Positions 15,598 through 45,245 of a DNA stretch of 45,245 bases are shown here, piece after piece. The DNA is taken from contig JAITAB010000019.1 of assembly GCA_031284315.1 (NCBI GenBank), positions 1 through 45,245 on the forward strand, read 5' to 3'. The position numbers and the translations under genes were made by a program. The stretch's first letter is position 1; every line of letters starts with the position of its first letter. The stretch is from Campylobacteraceae bacterium. GTDB taxonomy: Bacteria > Campylobacterota > Campylobacteria > Campylobacterales > Campylobacteraceae. The notes beneath the pieces are model-generated. The model was not told where the DNA came from. It saw only the letters and a program-made list of their open reading frames with translations, and ran no database searches.

Positions 15598-17907
15598 TTA
15601 TTTAATCTCTTTTACGCTAAATTCAACCTTTTCGCTCTGCCCGCTCTCGTCAATGACCACAAGTTGATAAATGTCCTCCTGCGTAAATTTGCGGTTCAAA
15701 AAATCCCCCTCGCTGTTTTGCGCTATAAGTTCGCCGTTCAAAAACCACCATCTTTTGCCTCTGCCGCCCTGCGAAGTGATTTTGGGGATTAATTCCCGCT
15801 CGGATATTGTAAAAATCGTGTCGTTTTTCACATTTTTGATAATGAGCGTTCTTGTCGGGTCATTGTCTTCAAGCGGCGGGCATGTTTGGCTTTTTTTTGG
15901 CAGTCTTTGCGATACATGTTCGCTTTTTGGAAGCCATGGAGTAAGCGAAACAGGCCAGAGGGCAAGCTTTTTTTGCATGGCGTTTTTGCAGTAATACGCA
16001 CTCATTTCGCCCTTATCGTCCGTGTAGTATGTAAACCAGCCGCTTGACAAATCCTGCTTGGAAGAAAAAAGAGTCGGCGGCGTGAAATCGTTAAATATCC
16101 ACGCTCTTTTTTCCACGCGGCAGTTTGGGTCGTTTTTCGCAAGCGGCTGTCCGCTCGGCCAGCATATATTTTTTACGCTTACAGACGAGGGTTTTTCATC
16201 CAAGTAGTCATTTAGCAAAAATGAGGTTGTCTCTCTTTGCTTTAAGTAATTGTTTATTTGATACAAAAACGGAACCGCTGACGCCGCGCCGAATTGCTCC
16301 GCAACAGGAGCGCCGTCCGGGCGTCCTGTCCAAACGCCGATGATATATTTTGAACTTATGCCAACAGCCCATGCGTCTCTCATGCCGTAACTCGTGCCTG
16401 TTTTATACGCAAACGACAAAAATCCGCGCCGATAAAACGCGGGGTCTGCTTCGCCCGAGAGCATGCGCCTTGTTATCCATGCCGCGCCCGCATCAATAAA
16501 ATCATACTCTATCAAAGGATCATCCGCAAGATATCTCAAAGCCGCGATTTTACCGCCTCTTGCATATGCGCTGTACGCGCTGACAAGTTTATCGAGACTG
16601 ATACCTGCGCCACCCAAAATGACGGCGAGATTTGGCTCTGCATAGGGCGGCAGTTTTAGATTTATATCTGCGCTTGAGAGTTTTGCCATAAATTTTTTGG
16701 GTCCGTAAACTTCCATCAATTGAACGGCAGGCAGATTTAAAGAGTCGCTCAAAGCATCTGACGCGCTCGCCGCGCCGGAAAATGCCATATTGAAATTTTC
16801 TGGAGTATAGCCTTGTATTCTTGGCGTATCCTGCAAAAGCGACTGCGAATGTATCAACCCCTCGTCTATCGCCAAAGCGTAAATAAAAGGCTTCAGCGTT
16901 GAACCCGGAGACCTCGCCGCGCTTACCATATCCACATGACCAAAGCGGCTTTCGTCATTAAAATCTATAGAACCGACATACGCTTTCACGGACATATCGG
17001 TATGATCCACCACAAGCATAGCCAAAGAGACGGCGGGGTGGAGGGCGGATTTCGCATTTAACGCCATCTCTTCAAGGCTTTGCTGCATGGAGGCGTCTAT
17101 ATTTGTTTTTATAACTCTTTCGTTTGTCATCTGAAGCGAACGCCTTGCAAAAATCGGCGCCAACTGCGGAGTAAAACGAGGCGGCAGATAGATATCCTCC
17201 TCTTTTGCCTCTTTTACCGTTTTTTCGTCCCATACGCCGAATTTCAGCAGTCTATCCAACACTTTATCGCGTGCCTTTTGCGCCTCTTTTGGATATCTAT
17301 CAGGTCTTAACTTGCTTGGAGACTGCGGTAAAGCCGTCATCAAAGCCGCTTCCGCATAAGTTAATTCCAGAGGCGTTTTGCCAAAATAACTCCAAGATGC
17401 CGCGCCGATGCCCTCTATCGTTCCGCCAAAAGGCGCACGGTTTAAATATATAGTCAAAATCTCATCTTTTGAGTAGCGCCATTCAAGCTGTGCGGCGCGC
17501 CACATCTGTTTGATTTTGCCGCTTATGCTCTTTTTGTGAGGTTCAAGTATCCTTGCCGTTTGCATGGTAAGAGTGCTTGCGCCCGATACCCTTTTGCCTT
17601 CAAATATATTTTGCGCCGCCGCGCGCGCTACGGAGAAGGGATTGATGCCAAAATGCCAGTAAAACCACCTGTCCTCATAAGCAAGCAAAGCTTCTAAATA
17701 AGCAGGCGACACATCTTTAATCTCCACAGGATAACGCCAAACGCCCTCTTCGTCCGCAAACCGCCAAAGCGGCGAATTATCGCTTGCGACTACTATCCTT
17801 GACATGCGCGCGTCATTCACGGGAAGCGGAAAAAGTTTGTCCAAAATAAACAGCGTACATGAAGCAAAGATAAGAAAAAAAAGAAAAAATTTTAAAATCT
17901 TTTTCAA
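15598..17907 (-). CDS. pbpC: Penicillin-binding protein 1C (bifunctional transglycosylase/transpeptidase)
   Basis: 769 aa. It has an N-terminal membrane anchor (KKILKFFLFFLIFASCTLFI), then a GT51 glycosyltransferase domain with the catalytic motif EDRWFYWHFG (Glu78). The transpeptidase domain follows, with SxxK at Ser336-Lys339 (SPGSTLKP), SxN at Ser389-Asn391 and KTG at 502-504. A ~170-residue C-terminal beta domain of the PBP1C type ends the protein. The start codon is TTG (17907-17905) with a weak ribosome site, chosen because it supplies the anchor helix. The alpha-2-macroglobulin gene lies 39 nt upstream on the same strand, the well-known pbpC/A2M pairing in which the inhibitor is thought to guard the periplasm while PBP1C repairs wall damage. 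Confidence 0.95.
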   Translation of the reverse strand: MKKILKFFLFFLIFASCTLFILDKLFPLPVNDARMSRIVVASDNSPLWRFADEEGVWRYPVEIKDVSPAYLEALLAYEDRWFYWHFGINPFSVARAAAQNIFEGKRVSGASTLTMQTARILEPHKKSISGKIKQMWRAAQLEWRYSKDEILTIYLNRAPFGGTIEGIGAASWSYFGKTPLELTYAEAALMTALPQSPSKLRPDRYPKEAQKARDKVLDRLLKFGVWDEKTVKEAKEEDIYLPPRFTPQLAPIFARRSLQMTNERVIKTNIDASMQQSLEEMALNAKSALHPAVSLAMLVVDHTDMSVKAYVGSIDFNDESRFGHVDMVSAARSPGSTLKPFIYALAIDEGLIHSQSLLQDTPRIQGYTPENFNMAFSGAASASDALSDSLNLPAVQLMEVYGPKKFMAKLSSADINLKLPPYAEPNLAVILGGAGISLDKLVSAYSAYARGGKIAALRYLADDPLIEYDFIDAGAAWITRRMLSGEADPAFYRRGFLSFAYKTGTSYGMRDAWAVGISSKYIIGVWTGRPDGAPVAEQFGAASAVPFLYQINNYLKQRETTSFLLNDYLDEKPSSVSVKNICWPSGQPLAKNDPNCRVEKRAWIFNDFTPPTLFSSKQDLSSGWFTYYTDDKGEMSAYYCKNAMQKKLALWPVSLTPWLPKSEHVSQRLPKKSQTCPPLEDNDPTRTLIIKNVKNDTIFTISERELIPKITSQGGRGKRWWFLNGELIAQNSEGDFLNRKFTQEDIYQLVVIDESGQSEKVEFSVKEIK

Positions 17908-17946: not shown

Positions 17947-20900
17947 TTATTTGACTGTGAATTTGGATACGCTTTTGCCTGTGGCGAAAATTTCAGGAGA
18001 GTACATGGACTCCACATGCGGCGGCGGAACCGTATAAACTCCCGGACTTACCGCGCGCGCAAGATATACAAGCACGGCGGGACTATACCGCTCAATATCA
18101 ATAGCGGCTATGTATCTGTCGTCTCTAAACTCTTGATGAATAATGGAAGTTCGCGCAAGCGCAAGCGATAACTCTTTGTTTGCTTTCATTGCATCGCTGT
18201 CGGCTAAACTTATCGCGCTGTGTCCTAAATTTTGATTTTCAAGCTCTAAACCAGCCGGCAGCAAATCCACCACAAGCGCATCGGAAATTCTCTCAAATTC
18301 AGTAGTTACCTTCAAAGCCACGACTATCAAATCTCCGCTTTTAAGCTCGTCTAAAACCGTCTCTTTGCCATCAAGCGTGTAATATGTCCTTGAAATGGTG
18401 ATATTGTTTGAAACGGGCGCGGGAGCCGATGTAGGATAGCCTGTGATATCTACTGAAGCAAACAGTATCGTTTCATCGGAGTTTTTGACGCTTTGCACGG
18501 ATTTAAGCGCGGCGGCGTCAAACGCTCTCATGAAGGGCTTGCCATCAAGCTTGATATTTTCCTTTTTGCCGTTCGCGTCAATAACTGCCTGCCAAAACGG
18601 CTCTTTTGCATTTACAAAATGTCTGCCCGCTAAAAATATAGCGTTTTGCTCCTGCGTGGAAAAATATCCTTTTGTTTTGATTTTTTCGGAGAGTGAAAGG
18701 GCGATTTTTGCTCTCTCGTCAGGCAATAAGTTATGTTCATACAAAAGCGACAATATCAAAGCCATATCTCTTACTTCGCTTCCATAGTCGCCGTACCAGT
18801 AATAGCCATTGCGCTTCGCTGAAAAGAGCAGCGCTTTTTTTGTAAGATCGTCCGCCCGCGAATTGTCGCCCGAGAGTTTTAACGCGAGAGCAAGCTGCAT
18901 GAGTGCAAGCGGGGATTGTTTATCGCTTGATGCGTCATAAAGGCGTCTTAAATTGCCGAGATTTGCCTTTTGTTCGCGCGCTAAAACAAAAGAGGCATAA
19001 CTTTTGACCGCGAAATTTGTATAATCCGCGCTATAAGTATAACCATAGTCAATATTCCCGCTATTGGCGTAGTATTGCAGTCTCTCTATCGCTCTGTTTA
19101 AAGCCTCCTGCGGCACATAAAAGCCCTGTTCTTTTGCCCTTAGCAAAAAGTCTGTTACATAAACGCCGGCCCAATGCGCCTCATGAGAGTTAGCATCCCA
19201 AAATCCGAAACCGCCGTTTGTTTTTTGCATGCCAAGAAGCCTCTCTATGCCTTTTTGCACATTCTCTTTTCGCTCTTCGTTGCTTGAAGTTTTGATTCCA
19301 AGCGCGGCAAGTTGTTCGGACGAAGCATAAATAGACGGATATATGCCGCTTGTAGTCTGCTCCACGCAGCCGTAAGGATAGGCAAACAGTTCCTTGACGG
19401 CTTGCGCTAAATTAAGCGGCGGGATAGAACTGATGCCAAGAGCCGCTTCTATGGTTCTTTCGTCAAGATTTTCATATCCTGCTTTAAATTCGGCGGCATT
19501 GAGAGTATCGTCTTTTTTCAACTCTTTGAAAAATTTAAAAACTCTCGCATTATAGGGCGGTCTTACTCCTATGACCCATTTTTTTTCTATCGTTTTTTGC
19601 GATTTGTCCTCAAAATCCGCTTTGACCGTTACCGTACCGCTTCCAAAGCCGCTTTGCGCGGATATTGGTATATAAATAACCTTTTTTTGGTTATTTAGTA
19701 TCGTTATTTGCTCCTCTTTAAAGCCGTCTAAATAACCTTGCGCAGTTACGGTTACTTTCAGTTTTTGTTCAAGTCCTGAGAGATTGTTTATATCAAGAGC
19801 AAGCGTGCTTTTATCGCCGCCCGCTAAAAATCTCGGGTGGTTTAACTCCACTACAAGAGGCGCGGCGACAATAGCTTTTTGCTCTGCGCTGCCGTAATCC
19901 TCGTCTCCCCAAATCTGCGCCATGAAGCGGAGTTCGCCGTTAAAATCGGGGATTTCAAACCAAACTTCCGCTTCCCCTTTTTCATTTATCGTTACAGGTT
20001 TGGACTGCATGGCGACCAGCAAAAATTCGCTTAAAGGTTTTTTGCCGCCCGTGAGTTTTGCAAGAGCCGTATCTCCGCCGTATTTCAATGACGCGCTTTT
20101 CGCGCCGCCTTCTATCAGATTGCCGTACACATCGTATATATCTATATTCCATTCCCGTTTGGCGAAAAATGTCTCAAAAGGGTTCGGCGTTTGAAATTCT
20201 GTGATATTTAAAATGCCGCTGTCCACCGCCGATACGATGGCGGTAAGCTTTTTGCCTTTTTGAATTTGGTTTGTTTTAAGCGATACTTTGATTTTCTGTT
20301 TTGGCTCTATTTTGTCAGGAACGCCGAGTTTCAAATCAATTTTTCTATCGTCTCTAAACAGCGGCAAATGCAGTATGCCCATAGCTCTTTTGGGCGTTAG
20401 ATGCAGGTTTTTATTGCCCTGTTTGATAATGGTCGCGCCGATGTAAATGTCATGGCTTGCCCACTCTTTGTTTACGGGTATTTGGACAACATTCGCGTTT
20501 TTACTGACATTGATATTCTGCTGCCACAAAACGCCCTCGTTTGTCTCTACGATAATGTAGCCGCTTCCGCCCTCAGGGGATTCAACGGTAACTTTCGCAA
20601 CATCGCCCGCCTTGTATGAGGGCTTGTCAAGTTTCAGCGTTATCTGCTCGGGTTTTGCCGTGTTTGCGCCGCTTTGCTGCCAACTGTATCCTGCGTAAAA
20701 GCGAACCGCGCTTACTGCGTTTGTATTTAAGTCCGTAACCTCAATGACATAAGAGCCCCAATCCACGTCAAATCCCACTATCGCGCTTTTGCCCTGCGCT
20801 ATGGATATATCCCTGTTTTCCATGTTGATATGTTTTACATTGTAGTCATACCCCCAGCCGCCGCCATCGTTATAATACCAGTAGTAATCGTACCGCTCCT

Positions 20901-22887
20901 TTATCAAAGAAACGCGGAGGTTGTTTTTTGCAAGTTTTTTGCCCTCGGTATTTGTAAATATTATTTCAAACTCTGCATGCGAATCTTCGTCTATGGAAAA
21001 TTCATTTTCATATCGTCTGTTTTTGTAGTTGTATATCTTTTTTACGCCAAAATTCGGTTTAATTGCGGGAAGTTCCATACTCGGGAAAACAGCCTGCGTG
21101 AAAGTCCTTGTTACGGGGCGTCCGCCTGATTCCATGAGGCTTGCTTCAAAGACTATATTAATCGGCGAATTGATGCTATCCCAAGAGTTTTGCGCAATTA
21201 CGCGCGCTTTTCCCTCCTCGTTAAGTTCGGTATCTACATATCTTATATATTTGTCCAAACCGCCCTCTCTTAAAGAGCCGAAATAAAATCCGTTTAGAGA
21301 TTTGAGCGGATTTCTCAGCGGTCGTATTTTCAAATCGCCTATAAGCCTGTTGCCTCCGGCCGGCGCGCCGTAAAGATATTTGCCGTATATGTCAAAAACC
21401 GCATCGCTTGTTTTGGGCAGTATTTCCGCGCTTTTGTTTACTTCAAGAGCCATTTTTTCAGGCAGAAAGTCTTCCACTTTAAAAGCGTAAAAACGGTAAT
21501 TTCCATCTCCTAAGTCAAATCTAAACTTCCACTCTCCCGTTGGCGCGTTTTGCGGCAGGTCGTATGTATATTGATAAAATCCGTCCTTGCCCTGCCATGT
21601 GAATGTTTTTGCTATTTTATTGTCGGCTTGCAAAATATCCGCTTTTATCGGCTGTTCTGATATGCGCTTGCCGTCATAATCTCTCAATACGGCATTTACA
21701 AACACTTTCTCCCCAGGTCGGTACAAATCGCGCGGACCAAATGTAAAAAGCGTTTTATCAAAATCCTTAGCTCCTGCAATATTAAAATCCGCCAAATCCA
21801 AAGCGCCCCTGTTCAGATAAACAAAGCTCGTTTTCCCGCCCTTTTGCGCGAGCAAAACCTCAGCTTTGCCAAGCGGCGCATTTAGATAGCCTTTCGCATC
21901 TGTTTTTAAATCGGCGGTTGTCTCGCCGTGCGCGTTTAAAAACCTGATATTTACATCCGACATGGGCGCGCCGCTTAGATTCTGCGTGAAAATATCATAA
22001 GAATTTCTGTTTTTATGAACGATAACGCCGATATCGGTAAATGTAAAAACAGTTATCGGAATATCATAAGAGTAGTATTTGCCCGCTTCTCTCATGACGG
22101 CTATATAAATGCCGTTTTCTTTTAATTCTTTTATATTTTTAACAGGCAAAGTTACCGTTTCGCGCGCGTTTTTTTTGGCATTTAGCGTAAATCTTCCCGA
22201 ATATACTGGTTTTATATTACTCTCGCGCAAAAAATTATCCATAGTATAAGCGCTGATAGAAGTCCTTTTAAAAAACCTTTCCAAAGTCTGCGGCAGGGAT
22301 TGGGCTTCTACGCGGTAAAAATCCACGTCAACTTCTTTGACATTCAAAGTCGTAACCGCAAGCCCTCTCGTAAAATCCAAAGGCAGCAGAGACGATGAGG
22401 AAGCAAAGCCTACGACAGGCTGTAAATCTTTCGTGGTAATCTCCACAGAATATCTGCCTGAGGGTTTTAACTCTTTGCCCGCTATGTTTTTGATTTTACT
22501 TTGCTGCTCTATATAAACAAGATATTTTGCGTTCGGGTCTAAATATTTGAAATATATCTCCTGTCTGTCTTTGGAAAGTTCCCATAAGCCGTCCACATTC
22601 TGCGAAGAGGTTTCCATCGTTCCGTCCGCGCGTTTTGATTGCTCTTGTTTTTGTATGGTAATGATTTTATTTAAATCCTGCCTTGCCGCAATCGGCGTTG
22701 AAAAAGTTATGGCGATTGCCGCCGCGCCCTCAACGGTCGTTTCCGAAGCGTCCACAATGTAAAAAGCCTTATCTTTAAATCGTTCAAGTTGAGCTTCTTT
22801 TGAAGCCGTATTTACATTTTGCGCAAAAAGCGATAAACTTACGCTTGCCGATAACATGAAGAGTTTTAATATACGGGAGAGGTTCAT
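17947..22887 (-). CDS. Bacterial alpha-2-macroglobulin family protein
   Basis: 1646 aa, the usual size for bacterial A2M (YfhM-like). These proteins trap proteases: cleavage of a bait region activates a Cys-Gln thioester that bonds the attacker. The thioester motif is intact (PYGCVEQTT, Cys1174), followed by the alpha-helical thioester domain (LLGMQKTNGGFGFWD, HWAGVYVTDFLLRA). Multiple MG beta-sandwich domains fill the first ~1100 residues, including DLYRPGEKVFVNAVLRD and LDKPSYKAGDVAKVTVESP. The signal peptide MNLSRILKLFMLSASVSLSL is followed by FAQN with no lipobox Cys, unlike the E. coli lipoprotein form, so this one is predicted to be soluble in the periplasm. AAGGAAA precedes the ATG. 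Confidence 0.95.
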   Translation of the reverse strand: MNLSRILKLFMLSASVSLSLFAQNVNTASKEAQLERFKDKAFYIVDASETTVEGAAAIAITFSTPIAARQDLNKIITIQKQEQSKRADGTMETSSQNVDGLWELSKDRQEIYFKYLDPNAKYLVYIEQQSKIKNIAGKELKPSGRYSVEITTKDLQPVVGFASSSSLLPLDFTRGLAVTTLNVKEVDVDFYRVEAQSLPQTLERFFKRTSISAYTMDNFLRESNIKPVYSGRFTLNAKKNARETVTLPVKNIKELKENGIYIAVMREAGKYYSYDIPITVFTFTDIGVIVHKNRNSYDIFTQNLSGAPMSDVNIRFLNAHGETTADLKTDAKGYLNAPLGKAEVLLAQKGGKTSFVYLNRGALDLADFNIAGAKDFDKTLFTFGPRDLYRPGEKVFVNAVLRDYDGKRISEQPIKADILQADNKIAKTFTWQGKDGFYQYTYDLPQNAPTGEWKFRFDLGDGNYRFYAFKVEDFLPEKMALEVNKSAEILPKTSDAVFDIYGKYLYGAPAGGNRLIGDLKIRPLRNPLKSLNGFYFGSLREGGLDKYIRYVDTELNEEGKARVIAQNSWDSINSPINIVFEASLMESGGRPVTRTFTQAVFPSMELPAIKPNFGVKKIYNYKNRRYENEFSIDEDSHAEFEIIFTNTEGKKLAKNNLRVSLIKERYDYYWYYNDGGGWGYDYNVKHINMENRDISIAQGKSAIVGFDVDWGSYVIEVTDLNTNAVSAVRFYAGYSWQQSGANTAKPEQITLKLDKPSYKAGDVAKVTVESPEGGSGYIIVETNEGVLWQQNINVSKNANVVQIPVNKEWASHDIYIGATIIKQGNKNLHLTPKRAMGILHLPLFRDDRKIDLKLGVPDKIEPKQKIKVSLKTNQIQKGKKLTAIVSAVDSGILNITEFQTPNPFETFFAKREWNIDIYDVYGNLIEGGAKSASLKYGGDTALAKLTGGKKPLSEFLLVAMQSKPVTINEKGEAEVWFEIPDFNGELRFMAQIWGDEDYGSAEQKAIVAAPLVVELNHPRFLAGGDKSTLALDINNLSGLEQKLKVTVTAQGYLDGFKEEQITILNNQKKVIYIPISAQSGFGSGTVTVKADFEDKSQKTIEKKWVIGVRPPYNARVFKFFKELKKDDTLNAAEFKAGYENLDERTIEAALGISSIPPLNLAQAVKELFAYPYGCVEQTTSGIYPSIYASSEQLAALGIKTSSNEERKENVQKGIERLLGMQKTNGGFGFWDANSHEAHWAGVYVTDFLLRAKEQGFYVPQEALNRAIERLQYYANSGNIDYGYTYSADYTNFAVKSYASFVLAREQKANLGNLRRLYDASSDKQSPLALMQLALALKLSGDNSRADDLTKKALLFSAKRNGYYWYGDYGSEVRDMALILSLLYEHNLLPDERAKIALSLSEKIKTKGYFSTQEQNAIFLAGRHFVNAKEPFWQAVIDANGKKENIKLDGKPFMRAFDAAALKSVQSVKNSDETILFASVDITGYPTSAPAPVSNNITISRTYYTLDGKETVLDELKSGDLIVVALKVTTEFERISDALVVDLLPAGLELENQNLGHSAISLADSDAMKANKELSLALARTSIIHQEFRDDRYIAAIDIERYSPAVLVYLARAVSPGVYTVPPPHVESMYSPEIFATGKSVSKFTVK

Positions 22888-38130: not shown

Positions 38131-40740
38131 ATGGCAATCGGTTCAAGCAATTTTTCTATTTGGTGCGACTTTATAGAGAGAGAATTTTTATCAAGAGAGC
38201 TTCCTGCGCTTGTTGATTCTGGTGTGGTAAGCGGCGTTACGAGCAACCCCGTTATCTTTAAAAACGCTATTTTAAACTCTAAAGCGTATGCCGAAGATAA
38301 GAAAAAAAGTATAGATATGCTTCCCAAGGAGAGATACGAGTTTTTAGCGATAAATGATGTCAAAAATGTCGCTAAACTGTTAGCTTCTACGCATAAAGCA
38401 AATGATCAAGATGGATTTGTGAGCATAGAGGTAAATCCTCTGTTTGCAGATGATTTTGAAAAAATGACTGACGAGGCTAAGCGGCTTTATAAAAAGATAG
38501 GCATGCCAAACATCATGATAAAAATTCCCGCAACAGAAGCTGGATATGAGACGATAAAAGAGTTAATTATAGAGGGCATCAATGTAAACGCCACTCTTGT
38601 TTTTTCGCCGCAGCAGGCAGGCAAGTGTCTTCAAGCGATAGAAAACGGATTTTACATATTTCAACGCAGAAATCCGAAAAAAGCCTTTCCGCAGGTTGTT
38701 ATCAGCGTTTTTGTAAGCCGTTTTGATAGAAAATTAGATGAAAAGTTTGAGTCTTTGGGGCTTGAAAAGATGAAATTTGGCGTCATGAACGCATCATATA
38801 TATATCAATTGGTAAGAGAACAGAAAATCTCCAACGTAAGATGTCTTTTTGCAAGCACAGGCGTAAGCGACCCGACTTTTAATAAGTCGTATTATATTAC
38901 AAGACTGCTCTATAAAAATGCTATCAATACAGCTCCTTTGGCGTCTATAGAAAGTTTCATGGAAGTGCTTGATACGGAAGAGAAAGTCTGTCCCGATAAA
39001 GAGAGTATTAAAAAATATTTTGAAGAAGTAGAGGCAAAAGGGGTAATACTTAAAGAAATATACGCTTCGCTTCTTGAAGAAGGGCTTGAACAGTTCAGTC
39101 AGGCGCACAGAGAATTGATGGAGAGTTTGAAAGTAACAAATGAAGAGATAGAGGAGATAAGAATGGCTGAAAAAGCCGAGCAAGAACGCATAGAGCGCGA
39201 AGCAAGAGAGCAGGAAGAAGCTTTAAGAAGAGCTGAGGAAGAGAGAAAAGCGGCCAAAAGAGACGAAGAAGAGAGAAAAGCGGTAGAGGAAGCCAGAAAA
39301 AAAACAGAGCAGGAAGCCGCTGAAAAAGCCGAGCGTGAAAGACTTGCAAAAGAGGCGCATGAGAAAGCTTTGGAGGATTTGAAAAGACAGACGATTACCG
39401 CAAAACCTGCAGAAGATATAAAACCCGCCGCCGTAAAAAAAGATGTAGAGGTAAATGTAGATGTTAAACTGAACAAGCCTCTTTCAAGAGCGGAACAGAG
39501 AAGATTAGCCGTGGCAGCGGCGCAGGAAAGCCGCTACAAAAGCCCTGTTATGAAAGTAACGGAAGGGTATCTGAAAGAACTTATTTCATATGGAGGAAGC
39601 GATTTGCATATCAAGTCGGATGCCGCTGTCAAAGGGCGCGTAAACGGCGAAATTGTAACGGTGAGCAACAATATCTTTAAAAAAGAGGAGTTGGATATCC
39701 TTGCACGCGAGCTTTTGCAGGATAGATACGACGATTTTACAAAGAAAAAAAATATAGATTTTACCTATAAACTTGACGAAGATTATCGGTTTCGCGTTAA
39801 TATATTCCGCCAAACAGACGGCATTTCATTAGTATTTCGCGTAATTCCATTGGATATTCCATCTGTCGAAGAGCTTGATTTGCCGCTTGCCATTAAAAAT
39901 TTTGCGACCAAAAGAAGAGGGCTTGTGCTGGTAACAGGACCTACGGGAAGCGGTAAAAGCACCACGCTCGCGGCTATCATAAATCTTATAAATCAAACGA
40001 GCCAAAGGCATATTATCACGATTGAAGATCCGATAGAGTTTATCTATAAAGACGAGCAGAGCATTATCAATCAACGATCAGTAGGGCAAGATGCAGTGAG
40101 TTTTTCAGACGCACTGGTGGCTTCCTTGAGAGAAGACCCAGATGTTATCATGGTTGGCGAAATGAGAGACGTTGAAACTATCAGAACGGCAATTCGCGCG
40201 GCGGAAACAGGCCACCTTGTGCTTTCTACTTTACATACGCTTGACGCCAAAGAAACGGTTGGGCGCATTATCAGTATGTTTAACGGCAATGAGCAGGTTC
40301 AGATACGCCACTCACTCGCTTCCGTACTTCAAGCGGTTATTTCACAAAGGCTTGTGAGGCGCAAGGACGACAAGGGAAGAGTTGCGGCTATTGAGATTTT
40401 GGTAAAAAACGAACGCATAGAAACGATGATAAAAGACGGCAGAGAGGGCGAGATAAAAGATGCTATTGAAGATGACAGCGATGTTTACGGTTCGCAAAGT
40501 TTCAATCAAGCGCTGCTTGATCTTTACATCAAAGACCTTATAAGCTACAACGAAGCTCTTTATACGGCGACTTCGGCGGCGGATTTGAAGATTTTACTTG
40601 ATAACCATGATATAGAAAAACATACGGGCATTAAGCGCGGCGGCACAAGAAAACGCTTGGAATATGATGATGACGAAGCTGAAAGCGAGAATATAAGCGT
40701 AGATATGGACGATGACGATATTTTGTCGTTAAAGCGGTAA
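38131..40740 (+). CDS. Transaldolase fused in frame to a PilT-type ATPase
   Basis: 869 aa in one open frame. Residues 1-334 are transaldolase: FSIWCDFIEREFLSRELPAL at the start, GVTSNPVIFKNAI, the Schiff-base Lys131 in MIKIPATEAG, and FASTGVSDPTF. Residues ~335-430 are a charged Glu/Ala/Arg/Lys coiled coil. From about 474 a PilT retraction ATPase follows: SYGGSDLHIKSD, Walker A GPTGSGKST (603-611), ITIEDPIEF, Walker B-like MVGEMRD, His box TGHLVLSTLHT (693-703), then an acidic tail. Sugar metabolism joined to pilus retraction has no obvious logic. One A less in the AAA of codon 334 (39130-39132) would give TTG AAG TAA and end a normal transaldolase. An ATG at 39163 (residue 345) with GAGGAG six bases upstream could start a separate 525-aa PilT protein. 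It may therefore be a true recent fusion, or two genes joined by a one-base error. Both catalytic parts look intact. Confidence 0.85.
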   Translation: MAIGSSNFSIWCDFIEREFLSRELPALVDSGVVSGVTSNPVIFKNAILNSKAYAEDKKKSIDMLPKERYEFLAINDVKNVAKLLASTHKANDQDGFVSIEVNPLFADDFEKMTDEAKRLYKKIGMPNIMIKIPATEAGYETIKELIIEGINVNATLVFSPQQAGKCLQAIENGFYIFQRRNPKKAFPQVVISVFVSRFDRKLDEKFESLGLEKMKFGVMNASYIYQLVREQKISNVRCLFASTGVSDPTFNKSYYITRLLYKNAINTAPLASIESFMEVLDTEEKVCPDKESIKKYFEEVEAKGVILKEIYASLLEEGLEQFSQAHRELMESLKVTNEEIEEIRMAEKAEQERIEREAREQEEALRRAEEERKAAKRDEEERKAVEEARKKTEQEAAEKAERERLAKEAHEKALEDLKRQTITAKPAEDIKPAAVKKDVEVNVDVKLNKPLSRAEQRRLAVAAAQESRYKSPVMKVTEGYLKELISYGGSDLHIKSDAAVKGRVNGEIVTVSNNIFKKEELDILARELLQDRYDDFTKKKNIDFTYKLDEDYRFRVNIFRQTDGISLVFRVIPLDIPSVEELDLPLAIKNFATKRRGLVLVTGPTGSGKSTTLAAIINLINQTSQRHIITIEDPIEFIYKDEQSIINQRSVGQDAVSFSDALVASLREDPDVIMVGEMRDVETIRTAIRAAETGHLVLSTLHTLDAKETVGRIISMFNGNEQVQIRHSLASVLQAVISQRLVRRKDDKGRVAAIEILVKNERIETMIKDGREGEIKDAIEDDSDVYGSQSFNQALLDLYIKDLISYNEALYTATSAADLKILLDNHDIEKHTGIKRGGTRKRLEYDDDEAESENISVDMDDDDILSLKR
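39151..39165 (+). promoter_or_regulatory. pilT: Internal Shine-Dalgarno and ATG for a separate PilT protein
   Basis: GAGGAG (39151-39156), then six bases, then ATG (39163-39165) in frame with the PilT part. It would yield a 525-aa protein beginning MAEKAEQERIE, with the coiled coil and the full ATPase. Confidence 0.6.
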
Positions 40741-41909: not shown

Positions 41910-42960
41910 AATATACCAGCGTTATATTGTATTTTTATATCTGAAAAATTTTTTCATTATATTTTGCGCATTAGAGTTTTTTTATGCGGGCGTTGATTTT
42001 ATCACCAATTTTAGCAAACTTCCAGACTCCGCGAATTTACAGTTTTTATATCTTTTGTTCAATCTTATGAGCGCGGTAAATTACACGATGCCGCTTTCTA
42101 TCGTTTTTGCGATGATAATTTCCAAATTTTCCATGATTCGTTCCAATGAACTTCTTTGCATGTACGCTGCGGGCATCACGAAAAACGCGCTTATTTTGCC
42201 GATATTTTTCACGACTTTGGTTTTGACGCTCGGATATATCGCACTCAATTTTACATCATTTTCATATACATCCGAATATAAAAGCAATCTGCTAAAATAC
42301 AGCCAAATTCTCTCTACTTCGTCTGATTTATTTTTGAAATACGAGGGTAAATATGTATATTTCGGCGAATTAAATCCACTAAAACAGGAAGCTGTAAAAG
42401 TTAAGATTTTTGATATAAAAGATAACGAACTGCAAGAGATTATAAGCGCGCAAAAAGGTGTTTTTATTGACAACACATGGGTTTTGAGCGATGTTGAGAT
42501 AATAAGAAAACCAAAGATAAATGAAAATTTAAGCACAAAACTTGAAAGTCTCAAACTGCCTTACATGAACGCTTTGGAAAAATTTCGCCCCAAAATCATA
42601 GAAAACGCCTATCTTGGGCAATCCTCTATCCCCGATGCTATTGACGCGATAAAATTTTTCGGCATGCAGGGAGTTAATATAGACTCTATCAAAACGAACC
42701 TTTATCTGATACTTTTTTTCCCGTTTTTTGCACCGTTCATGGTCGTGATTTTTTACTATTATCTGCCGTTGTCGGGAAGATTTTTCAACCTCGCACTGAT
42801 GAATTTTATATTTGTTTTTATCGCGCTGTCGCTTTGGGGAGTACTTTTTGTACTTGGCAAATTTGCCTCAAACGGAGCTATGGCGCCCGAAATATCCATA
42901 ATTTTACCGATAATTATTTTGGGAATTTTCGCGCTTGTTTTGTACCGCAAAAACCGATAA
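41902..42960 (+). CDS. LptF/LptG-family (YjgP/YjgQ) permease
   Basis: 352 aa from the ATG at 41902 inside the pth end; a longer frame opening at 41761 is only pth overlap. Transmembrane helices lie near the N-terminus (IVFLYLKNFFIIFCALEFFY), around residues 50-75 and 100-120, and three at the C-terminus (LYLILFFPFFAPFMVVIFYY, LMNFIFVFIALSLWGVLFV, IILPIIILGIFALVLY). A periplasmic beta-jellyroll region lies between. This is the topology of LptF/LptG, the permease pair that extracts LPS from the inner membrane with LptB. MSAVNYTMPLSIVFAMIISK and SNELLCMYAAGI match the family. Which of the two subunits it is cannot be told. Confidence 0.9.
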   Translation: MVKIYQRYIVFLYLKNFFIIFCALEFFYAGVDFITNFSKLPDSANLQFLYLLFNLMSAVNYTMPLSIVFAMIISKFSMIRSNELLCMYAAGITKNALILPIFFTTLVLTLGYIALNFTSFSYTSEYKSNLLKYSQILSTSSDLFLKYEGKYVYFGELNPLKQEAVKVKIFDIKDNELQEIISAQKGVFIDNTWVLSDVEIIRKPKINENLSTKLESLKLPYMNALEKFRPKIIENAYLGQSSIPDAIDAIKFFGMQGVNIDSIKTNLYLILFFPFFAPFMVVIFYYYLPLSGRFFNLALMNFIFVFIALSLWGVLFVLGKFASNGAMAPEISIILPIIILGIFALVLYRKNR

Positions 42961-43006
42961 ATTTGCAATTTTCTTTTAACACGAGCCCAAGTTAAAACGA
43001 CTTTAA

Positions 43007-43012
43007 TATAAT
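43007..43012 (+). promoter_or_regulatory. Candidate -10 of the first duplicated leader
   Basis: CTTTAATATAAT with TATAAT at 43007-43012, about 100 nt before the ATG at 43112. The second leader has a related ACTTTAATATAGAAT at 44843-44857. Confidence 0.45.
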
Positions 43013-43053
43013 ATCAATACCAACCATGTTATTCTTACAAACGGGAGACGGGG

Positions 43054-43111
43054 TTAAACTCTACCGTTTAATTTTTTAAAATTGTTCTATGCATTCATTA
43101 AAGGATTGAAC
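43054..43111 (+). repeat. Duplicated leader, copy 1, with TTAAAC-N6-GTTTAA dyad
   Basis: The perfect dyad TTAAAC (43054-43059) / GTTTAA (43066-43071) around TCTACC is followed by TTTTTTAAAATTG, then AAGGATTGAAC and the ATG. It aligns with 44908-44961 with few differences and a 4-bp length change. Either it is an attenuator-like RNA hairpin with a T-run, or the dyad is an operator just ahead of a TAAAAT -10 at 43077-43082. Confidence 0.75.
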
Positions 43112-43642
43112 ATGAGAGCATTCGGAAAAGTTATAAGCTGGTATTTTGCCGTTTTATTTTTGGCATTGTTTACGGTAAGTACGGCGGCAGAGTCTGCGTC
43201 CAAAAACGAGAAAGCGCCGATGGATCAGCTCATAGAGGCTATTTTGAAAACAGGCGGAACTTATACTGTTTTGCTGGACGATACTGCGCAAGAGGAGTGG
43301 GCAAATCTAATGATGTATCTTGAAGGGCAAGACCCGCGAACCATAGCGCAGATTTCCTTGCCCATAAATGTGCAATTTTACGGACTTGCGCAACAAGGCA
43401 AAACCACGCCCATGTTTTCAATAACGCCGAAAAAATCGGGCATACTAAGCGTTACAGTGGATACTAAAGGCGATTTTACGCCCGATATCAAATGCGGGGA
43501 AAAAGCGGTGCAGGAAAATGTCGGTTTTAGCGTTTATCGCGTAAATTTTGCGGTTACGGCAGGCAAAACTTACCATATAACTATCGGCGATTCGCTTAAT
43601 GAGAGCGGTTTATACAGCGTAACCGCCGTATTGAAGCCATAA
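43112..43642 (+). CDS. Secreted protein of unknown function, small beta domain
   Basis: 176 aa from the ATG at 43112, which has AAGGA (43101-43105) six bases before. A signal peptide (MRAFGKVISWYFAVLFLALF, cleaved near STAAES) precedes a mature part of about 140 residues. Its second half (MFSITPKKSGILSVTVDTKG, VNFAVTAGKTYHITIGD, GLYSVTAVLKP) looks like a beta-sandwich of the PPC (pre-peptidase C-terminal) kind, but this is only a resemblance. No catalytic motif is visible. The next gene starts 9 nt later with a similar signal peptide (MRTFKQFISWRLAVL), so the two look like a duplicated export cassette with different cargo. Function unknown. Confidence 0.72.
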   Translation: MRAFGKVISWYFAVLFLALFTVSTAAESASKNEKAPMDQLIEAILKTGGTYTVLLDDTAQEEWANLMMYLEGQDPRTIAQISLPINVQFYGLAQQGKTTPMFSITPKKSGILSVTVDTKGDFTPDIKCGEKAVQENVGFSVYRVNFAVTAGKTYHITIGDSLNESGLYSVTAVLKP

Positions 43643-43651
43643 GTATCAAAC

Positions 43652-44797
43652 ATGAGAACATTCAAACAATTCATAAGTTGGCGGCTTGCCGTCTTGTCCG
43701 CAATGGCGATGTTTATGGCAAGTTCTGCTTTTGCTACGCCTATAAAGCCTATCATGGCTCATGTAGAAAGTATTGCTCCTGTCAATATAGGAGAGAAGAC
43801 TTTTATACCTGTGCAGATTGATAAGCTTGACTTTAAACTAAAATCTGCAAAGATAAGTTTTAAGATTAATACATGGTTGCCTCCTTTGGAAGAAGGTATC
43901 AGCGCAGACTCTGTAAAGACAGAAGAGACAGTAGTTGATGTCAGCAAACTGACATCTTTTCCATATACCGTTTATGTGCCTGTAACGGTTACAGGGGAGG
44001 GCAGATTTGACTTTAAAGGCGCGTTACATATAGAAGCGCTTGAGGGCAAAATGATATTTGACAAAGAGTATTTTGATTATCCTTTACGCTTTAGCATATT
44101 TGCGTTTGAAGGCAGAGTATTTTTTGCAAAGTATAGCGATTCAGCAGCAGCAGCGGCAGCAGATGAGAATCTCAAAAAAACAAACTCCGAATATAATAAA
44201 CTCTTAAACAAAAAAGAGAATACAGGCAAAGGGATCCTAAAACAGAGTTTCTCAAAAGAGGAAGAGGAGAAGCTGCATAATATTTTGATAGACGCCAAAC
44301 AACAGCTATTAAGAAAATACTATGAACGCTATCCCATCAAGCCATCTCCAACATCAAGACTTCTTAGAGAAGCCCCTTTAAGCAAACCTCAAAAAGACGA
44401 CACTGTCGTCTTAGAGGTTAATTGGGCTATTAATGACAGTTATACTTCCTTTTTACCCTTACACGGAGCGGAAATAACAATATATGCAAACGAAAACAAT
44501 AACTCTATGACTCAAATATCCAAAGGCGTTTTAAATAACGGCAAATACGGTTTCATATCTCCAAGAGACAATCTCAGCTTTACCGCCAAAATAAGCGCCA
44601 AATACGGAAACGACTTTGAAGTAAAAAATGCCACAGGAAGCGTTATAGAGATAGGCTTTAAAGATATTACGAGCTTTAATATAAAAACAGTTGAAAACGA
44701 CAATGATTTATTAGAAATAGTAGGCGTAGAAGCTAACGCATGGTCTGTATTTCAAGCGTTCATAAAATTACATAAATTAACTTTTAAAAATTCATAA
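43652..44797 (+). CDS. Secreted protein of unknown function, two beta domains
   Basis: 381 aa. The signal peptide (MRTFKQFISWRLAVLSAMAM, cleaved near AFA-TP) resembles the previous gene's. A beta-rich region (about 35-160) contains YTVYVPVTVTGEGRFDFKG. A low-complexity helical linker (about 165-240) includes AAAAAA encoded by CAG/CGG repeats. A second beta domain (about 250-345) with VVLEVNWAINDSYTSFLPLH and GAEITIY resembles carboxypeptidase-regulatory or transthyretin-like folds. I do not recognise the whole. No ribosome site is obvious in the 9-nt gap, so translation may be coupled. Base use is more AT-rich toward the end, hinting at an accessory locus. Confidence 0.7.
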   Translation: MRTFKQFISWRLAVLSAMAMFMASSAFATPIKPIMAHVESIAPVNIGEKTFIPVQIDKLDFKLKSAKISFKINTWLPPLEEGISADSVKTEETVVDVSKLTSFPYTVYVPVTVTGEGRFDFKGALHIEALEGKMIFDKEYFDYPLRFSIFAFEGRVFFAKYSDSAAAAAADENLKKTNSEYNKLLNKKENTGKGILKQSFSKEEEEKLHNILIDAKQQLLRKYYERYPIKPSPTSRLLREAPLSKPQKDDTVVLEVNWAINDSYTSFLPLHGAEITIYANENNNSMTQISKGVLNNGKYGFISPRDNLSFTAKISAKYGNDFEVKNATGSVIEIGFKDITSFNIKTVENDNDLLEIVGVEANAWSVFQAFIKLHKLTFKNS

Positions 44798-44907
44798 ACA
44801 CTATTTATTAATAAGAATTATTAATTATTATACTTACCGCATACTTTAATATAGAATTAATAATAGTTATGGTATTTTTCGCGAATTGGGAATAAGGGAA
44901 GAGGTGA

Positions 44908-44961
44908 TTAAACTCTGCCGTTTAATCTTTTAAAATTGTTCTACACATTAAAGGATTTAAC
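44908..44961 (+). repeat. Duplicated leader, copy 2
   Basis: The same dyad TTAAAC (44908-44913) / GTTTAA (44920-44925), loop TCTGCC, then TCTTTTAAAATTG and AAGGATTTAAC before the ATG. The stem extends to 7 bp (A44907 with T44926). The gene behind it is unrelated in its protein sequence to the one behind copy 1. Confidence 0.75.
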
Positions 44962-45245
44962 ATGGAAGGATTGGGTCTTGAAATCGTTATTATCTTGGTA
45001 ATAACAGGACTTGTAATATATTTTATAAAGAAAAAATCACTAAGTATATGGATTATTGCAATACCAATACTTCCATTTGCATACGCTTCTTTACAAATAG
45101 TCATGGAGTATGACGGAAACGACTTCACAAAAGCTTCAAACACATCTATCGAAGGATTTGTATGCGAAGATAAAAATCAAACATTAAACGCCGAACAGCA
45201 AAAACAAAGAGAACAAAGAATAAAAGAGATATATGAAGCTATCGA
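44962..45245 (+). CDS. Membrane protein of unknown function, partial
   Basis: 94 complete codons are in the window; the gene runs off the right edge. The ATG at 44962 has AAGGA (44951-44955) six bases before, inside the repeated leader. The protein opens MEGLGLEIVIILVITGLVIY, then FIKKKS, a second hydrophobic helix (LSIWIIAIPILPFAYASLQI), then a polar part with YDGNDFTKASNTSIEGFVCE and a Gln/Glu/Lys-rich helix (AEQQKQREQRIKEIYEAI). No family is recognised. Two helices with a short cytoplasmic turn are likely. The locus is AT-rich compared with the housekeeping part. Confidence 0.7.
   Translation, partial: MEGLGLEIVIILVITGLVIYFIKKKSLSIWIIAIPILPFAYASLQIVMEYDGNDFTKASNTSIEGFVCEDKNQTLNAEQQKQREQRIKEIYEAI

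Follow-up and report, generated by a model that had tools for sequence, protein, structure and literature searches.

Leader switches with mutually exclusive hairpins are either riboswitch-like or protein-controlled. The leader described here resembles them in that the 3′ arm of its upstream hairpin is predicted to double as the anti-SD strand, and differs from them in having no known ligand domain and a second hairpin that is not conserved in all copies. In FourU-type RNA thermometers, as outlined in a section of PMC10586365, the SD is paired to a U run within a leader hairpin, and the same pairing is predicted for copy 1 of our leader, in which AAUUUUUUAA/UUAAAGGAUU sets four U against the SD. 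Unlike in such thermometers, the long U run opposite AAGG is confined to copy 1, the other six copies reading UCUUU, and no Rfam match of this type was obtained at E up to 10.

With regard to the genes behind the leader, the comparison is with honeybee-gut bifidobacteria, which carry many RCC1-repeat secreted proteins per genome according to the portion of PMC4449606 relied on here. As in our case, those surface families occur in tandem copies that are mostly not positional orthologues, their genes are cut at contig borders, and they evolve by duplication, divergence and recombination (PMC4449606, same portion). They differ in being Gram-positive and LPxTG-anchored with Flg_new domains, and that portion of PMC4449606 mentions no shared leader; here, unlike in bifidobacteria, the proteins come from Campylobacteraceae genomes and are mosaic in their mature parts (PPC-like, VWA, protease-like). 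Our search of the open-access literature found no paper dealing with this leader or with RCC1 proteins in these bacteria.

Copies of the leader and the genes behind them

The window analysed is a stretch of 45,245 nt, the whole of contig C36 of its own genome, G000 (1.83 Mb, 69 contigs), and its two leader copies are designated W1 (copy 1) and W2 (copy 2). The first-pass annotation had reported a leader of about 55 bp repeated at 43054 and 44908 together with a distal -10-like element, and both repeats were confirmed. As direct repeats in the window, the dyad block (43040-43095 and 44894-44949) is 84% identical over 56 nt, the common block from SD to start codon (43096-43125 and 44946-44975) 83% over 30 nt, and the distal element, which is AT-rich (43000-43036 and 44843-44879), 73% over 37 nt. 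The dyad reads TTAAACTCTACCGTTTAA in copy 1 (43054-43071) and TTAAACTCTGCCGTTTAA in copy 2 (44908-44925). Allowing three mismatches, the dyad pattern was seen 3 times in the window versus a mean of 0.37 in 100 dinucleotide shuffles of it. The exact dyad occurs only twice in the 1.83 Mb of the own genome, and blastn of the leader against this genome returned the second copy at E = 1.5e-15 and the next match at 0.19.

A covariance model built from five copies, all among the seven strong ones, was searched against 14 genomes of the genus. It revealed a third copy in the own genome, at C6:2165-2294 (90.9 bits), whose differing loop had hidden it from the pattern search; the two window copies are thus not the only ones. 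In all, seven strong copies (90.9-137.5 bits) are present in four of the 14 genomes: three in G000, two in G007 (C81 and C143), and one each in G008 (C31) and G006 (C90). G006:C68 is a partial copy (39.3 bits) in which the promoter block is retained and the dyad is missing. We excluded from these counts weak matches of 25-30 bits without a dyad (G000:C60, G000:C26, G008:C25, G003:C36, G006:C112, G013:C129 and, twice, G003:C90), and took as chance the weak blastn matches of 18-40 nt at nine places outside G000, G007 and G008, of which those in G012 were inspected. A second model (R2), built from all seven copies and run on 153 genomes of the family with stricter filters and 22 candidates scored per genome, was positive in the same four; the remaining 139 genomes yielded no leader, and none of the other 11 genera had one. 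Absence of the leader is to be read softly, since several genomes of the genus are 55-90% complete.

Copy 1 precedes the gene of a secreted 176-aa protein (43112-43642, forward strand) consisting of a signal peptide and a domain predicted to fold like PPC; the best Foldseek match of its model (pLDDT 69.7) is the PPC domain 5sv5 (E 8.4e-05). Relatives of this protein occur in four other genomes of the genus, and by sequence it matched neither a Pfam nor an NCBIfam family and had no significant relative in the PDB. Next comes a secreted 381-aa protein (43652-44797, forward strand) with no dyad leader of its own, which shares 76% identity with the N-terminal third of an 1141-aa open frame of G008 and, by sequence comparison, looks like a truncated version of it. 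The 176-aa and 381-aa genes have a common signal-peptide region, visible as a direct repeat in the window, and the 176-aa protein matches the C-terminal part of the same 1141-aa frame. Copy 2 precedes the start of a membrane protein (44962-45243, forward strand; 94 aa, cut by the contig end) whose family differs from that of the copy-1 cargo. The genes behind the two leaders had been called unrelated, which is correct insofar as the copy-2 gene belongs to a different family, but its homologues occupy the same kind of locus, and the two proteins behind copy 1 match parts of a single frame. Homologues of the 381-aa protein were found in the Campylobacteraceae bacterium MAGs Nc350_bin201, Im510_bin75 and Cd354_bin15, isolate names of a kind that we take to denote termite-gut metagenomes.

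The cargo of G000:C6 and G007:C81 has an MQRFYCIK.../MKQFYCIK... signal region, that of G008:C31 and G006:C90 is a secreted protein of large size that matches VWA weakly and contains an HEFGH motif, protease-like by eye, and in G007:C143 a homologue of the copy-2 gene comes after what remains of a signal peptide (19 aa). The proteins of G008:C31 and G007:C81 hit the contig end in the same segment (DNA 88.7% identical over 106 nt), the one that opens the RCC1-like domain found in G005:C30 and at the G000:C13 start. The genes behind the leaders encode secreted or membrane proteins from mosaic families that are linked to one another, apparently often carrying RCC1 repeats. All four leader genomes are among the six of the 14 genus genomes that have RCC1 repeats (chance 15/1001 by our own arithmetic); no RCC1 repeats were found in the window cargoes, that of copy 2 being cut off, and RCC1 proteins untouched by any leader match also occur (G000:C14 and C42). 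In G005:C30 (L146, 6735-8755, reverse strand), three tandem paralogues of the copy-2 gene (190-214 aa), possibly partner or immunity-like genes, lie just before a 1162-aa VWA7/RCC1 protein. Contig breaks fall within these genes or the RCC1 domain at the window end (45245), G007:C81, G007:C143, G008:C31, G006:C68 and G000:C13, which suggests that leader copies outnumber those visible in the assemblies.

Pairwise blastn showed that copies with different cargo (W2 and G007:C81; G000:C6 and G008:C31) are alike through promoter and leader to within at most 10 nt of the start codon, while G008, G007:C143 and G006:C90 are alike further, into the signal peptide. The proposal of a reusable expression cassette stands, with seven strong copies in four of 14 genomes, at least three kinds of gene downstream, and homology between copies that stops at the start codon where the genes differ. 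Upstream of the promoter, W2, G000:C6 and G007:C81 carry the tail of the 381-aa gene (NAWSVFQAF), a stretch internal to a longer gene in G008 and G006, and G006:C68 has a similar, more decayed tail. The leader sits after the L17 gene in G000:C6 and G007:C81, and after homoserine dehydrogenase in G008:C31 and G006:C68, where the flanks are 80.7% identical over 1499 nt and the cargo is different; window copy 1 adjoins an LptF/G gene, and the G007:C143 leader lies near an aspartyl-tRNA-synthetase-like gene. Block homology, neighbour-gene remnants and site sharing together indicate that the leader has been copied, as one unit, along with a mosaic gene family. It exists in multiple copies, is found only with this set of genes, has been block-copied at several chromosomal sites and contains a conserved inverted repeat.

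Upstream of the leader copy in G006:C90 (L076), positions 516-863 hold five CRISPR-like 38-nt repeats, four of them spaced ~65 nt. Elsewhere in the window, an 869-aa open frame (38131-40740, forward strand) is a candidate fusion, with transaldolase at 10-332 and a type II secretion ATPase domain at 470-752, and on the reverse strand a penicillin-binding-protein-like gene adjoins a bacterial alpha-2-macroglobulin gene (15598-17907 and 17947-22887), a usual pairing.

Candidate promoters and putative hairpin H1

The promoter region of copy 1 (43000-43030, forward strand) has TTTAAT at 43002, followed at a spacing of 17 nt by CATGTT at 43025, with an alternative -10 TATAAT at 43007; that of copy 2 (44843-44873, forward strand) has TTTAAT at 44845 and TATGGT at 44868, with an alternative -10 TAGAAT at 44852. 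The region is conserved among the seven copies: a TTTAAT-like hexamer, a 17-nt spacing and a TATGnT-like hexamer recur in 7/7, and TAnaAT is found in 5/7 at block positions 8-10. The latter fits the C. jejuni sigma-70 -10 motif, given as gnTAnaAT without a -35 in an excerpt of PMC3847290. In a strict sigma-70 consensus scan, neither promoter candidate matched. From either candidate we infer a start site that would place the dyad within the 5′ UTR, where it would be transcribed and fold as an RNA hairpin, H1.

The putative H1 spans 43052-43073 in copy 1 (forward strand; GGTTAAAC-TCTACC-GTTTAATT, 8-bp arms including two outer G.U pairs) and 44906-44927 in copy 2 (forward strand; GATTAAAC-TCTGCC-GTTTAATC, 8 perfect pairs). 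The family dyad is GATTAAAC-N5/6-GTTTAATC, with arms of 8 bp if G.U is allowed; RNAalifold on the seven copies chose exactly those 8 pairs, and 55 of the 56 stem cells are paired. Mean column identity is 0.91 in the arms (16 columns) versus 0.64 in 44 other leader columns and 0.52 in the loop, with SD and start left out and columns with fewer than five letters dropped. A permutation test of arm versus neighbouring columns gave p about 1e-4 with columns treated as independent and, because the copies are related by descent, on few independent lineages.

Could such a dyad be without a present role, the similarity reflecting recent paralogues that were duplicated with their upstream regions and are constitutively expressed? 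We regard this as rather unlikely, yet a functionless by-product has to be taken seriously as a rival, since the dyad is missing from two related units, namely G006:C68 and the orthologous promoter at G007:C100, where the G007 orthologue of the 176-aa gene is found. It also accords with the copying of leaders together with flanking DNA and with the absence of compensatory double changes at all 8 H1 pairs, of which 4 vary on one side, 3 are invariant and 1 departs only by the broken cell. It is opposed by the degree of arm conservation relative to neighbouring columns, and by loops whose length shifts while the arms stay.

One of the two mechanisms offered by the first-pass annotation was an operator controlling a small regulon. 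Palindromic arms around a non-conserved centre are indeed operator-like, but a DNA operator for a dimeric regulator of the gene set is, in our judgement, quite improbable. Half-site spacing is 5 in three copies and 6 in four, and the distance from the -10-like element to the dyad varies from 21 to 42 nt (sd 6.7), less steady than that from dyad to SD (21-30 nt, sd 3.2; 21-22 in five of seven copies). All five arm substitutions break DNA symmetry, four of them keeping RNA pairing as G.U and one breaking the pair; this is weak evidence because transitions only would keep half paired, and by our own arithmetic such an outcome would arise in roughly one case out of five were every change a transition. 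The geometry is the better evidence against an operator. Moreover, the dyad pattern occurs at eight places over the 14 genomes, seven of them leaders; the eighth, in G000:C23, was rejected as a regulatory site since it lies within an ABC-transporter-like coding sequence. With arms conserved, loops not conserved and a steadier distance to the SD than to the promoter, the sequence comparison speaks for an RNA hairpin close to the ribosome site rather than for a DNA operator.

The other mechanism offered, a hairpin in the RNA leader, thus fares better as regards the hairpin, but less well as regards attenuation. Every copy has CTTT, CTTTT or a T run after H1, as might befit a (protein-controlled) terminator or anti-terminator. 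A terminator scan seeking a G+C-rich hairpin and a U run was nevertheless blank at both window leaders, for which reason attenuation is less likely than action on translation; the stem is A+T-rich (-2.8 to -6.9 kcal/mol in five copies), and no leader peptide is conserved among the seven copies. Transcription attenuation is therefore very unlikely. The candidate peptide, a GTG frame (VIKL... or VIRP...) across the dyad in five of seven copies, was discarded, its length and end not being conserved and the frame being absent from W1 and G007:C143. Hardly credible is a site-specific recombination site swapping downstream genes, suggested by conserved arms around a variable centre and one site with different cargo, because the centres differ in length and sequence and the homology of different-cargo copies through the dyad to the start codon means that the junction is not at the dyad.

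Rfam gave no matches at gathering score in the window, and a permissive scan of 42950-45000 (E up to 10) gave two matches far under the cut-offs (E 2 and 3.4). A loop-purine pseudoknot was likewise rejected, the duplex of loop and upstream purine tract beating shuffles only in G008 (fraction 0.02; 0.18-0.85 in the other six).

Predicted hairpin H2 and access to the SD

The 3′ arm of H1 and the following CTTT(T)AA are able to pair with TTAAAGGATT, forming a second predicted hairpin, H2. In copy 1 it would span 43066-43111 (forward strand; GTTTAATTTTTTAA with TTAAAGGATTGAAC, MFE -11.6 kcal/mol) and hide the SD AAAGGAT at 43100-43106; in copy 2 it would span 44920-44961 (forward strand; GTTTAATCTTTTAA with TTAAAGGATTTAAC) and hide the SD AAAGGAT at 44950-44956. 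Predicted H2 occupancy in W1 and W2 is 0.99-1.00 at 25 and 37 °C. The predicted unpaired probability of the SD is 0.01 in W1 and 0.02 in W2, compared with a median of 0.55 in 19 other window genes (of 29 other hand-picked starts, 10 had no detectable SD), only one of which is as inaccessible, and only 1.3-1.7% of upstream shuffles are as low.

SD access in the other five copies is ordinary versus shuffles (fraction 0.24-0.96). Both hairpins are predicted in G000:C6 and G006:C90, mostly H1 in G008, H1 only in G007:C143 and neither in G007:C81; predicted H1 occupancy is almost nil in W1, W2 and G007:C81. Going by these models, H2 characterises the two window copies, and perhaps some of the rest, but is not conserved across the leader family.

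Proposed mechanism and its meaning

We propose that the repeat is a promoter with a 5′ UTR of ~75-110 nt, together forming the shared expression unit of a genus-restricted set of secreted and membrane genes in Campylobacteraceae-like bacteria, and that the balance of H1 and H2 sets their translation, a reading to which we give an even chance. The 3′ arm of H1 and the CTTT behind it would pair instead with AAAGGATT to form H2, covering the ribosome-binding site. Since the predictions give H2 the upper hand in W1 and W2, their resting state would be OFF; a signal such as a protein, a small RNA, temperature or coupled ribosomes would favour H1. The copies would have spread by duplication and recombination with the gene family, the dyad itself not being the crossover site. 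A translational RNA switch is plausible, and the leader probably tunes the amount of protein made. The wider version, in which a bistable RNA switch specific to the genus masks the ribosome site for the whole mosaic host-facing family and travels as a cassette with its genes, is unlikely; were it true, newly acquired surface proteins would fall under one common translational control.

Even if not regulatory, the leader still marks a mosaic, assembly-breaking family of secreted proteins in this genus. If translational, it gives uncultured Campylobacteraceae an RNA element that is small and open to testing, and its control of translation would keep a variable set of secreted proteins under one control despite the shuffling of genes between sites.
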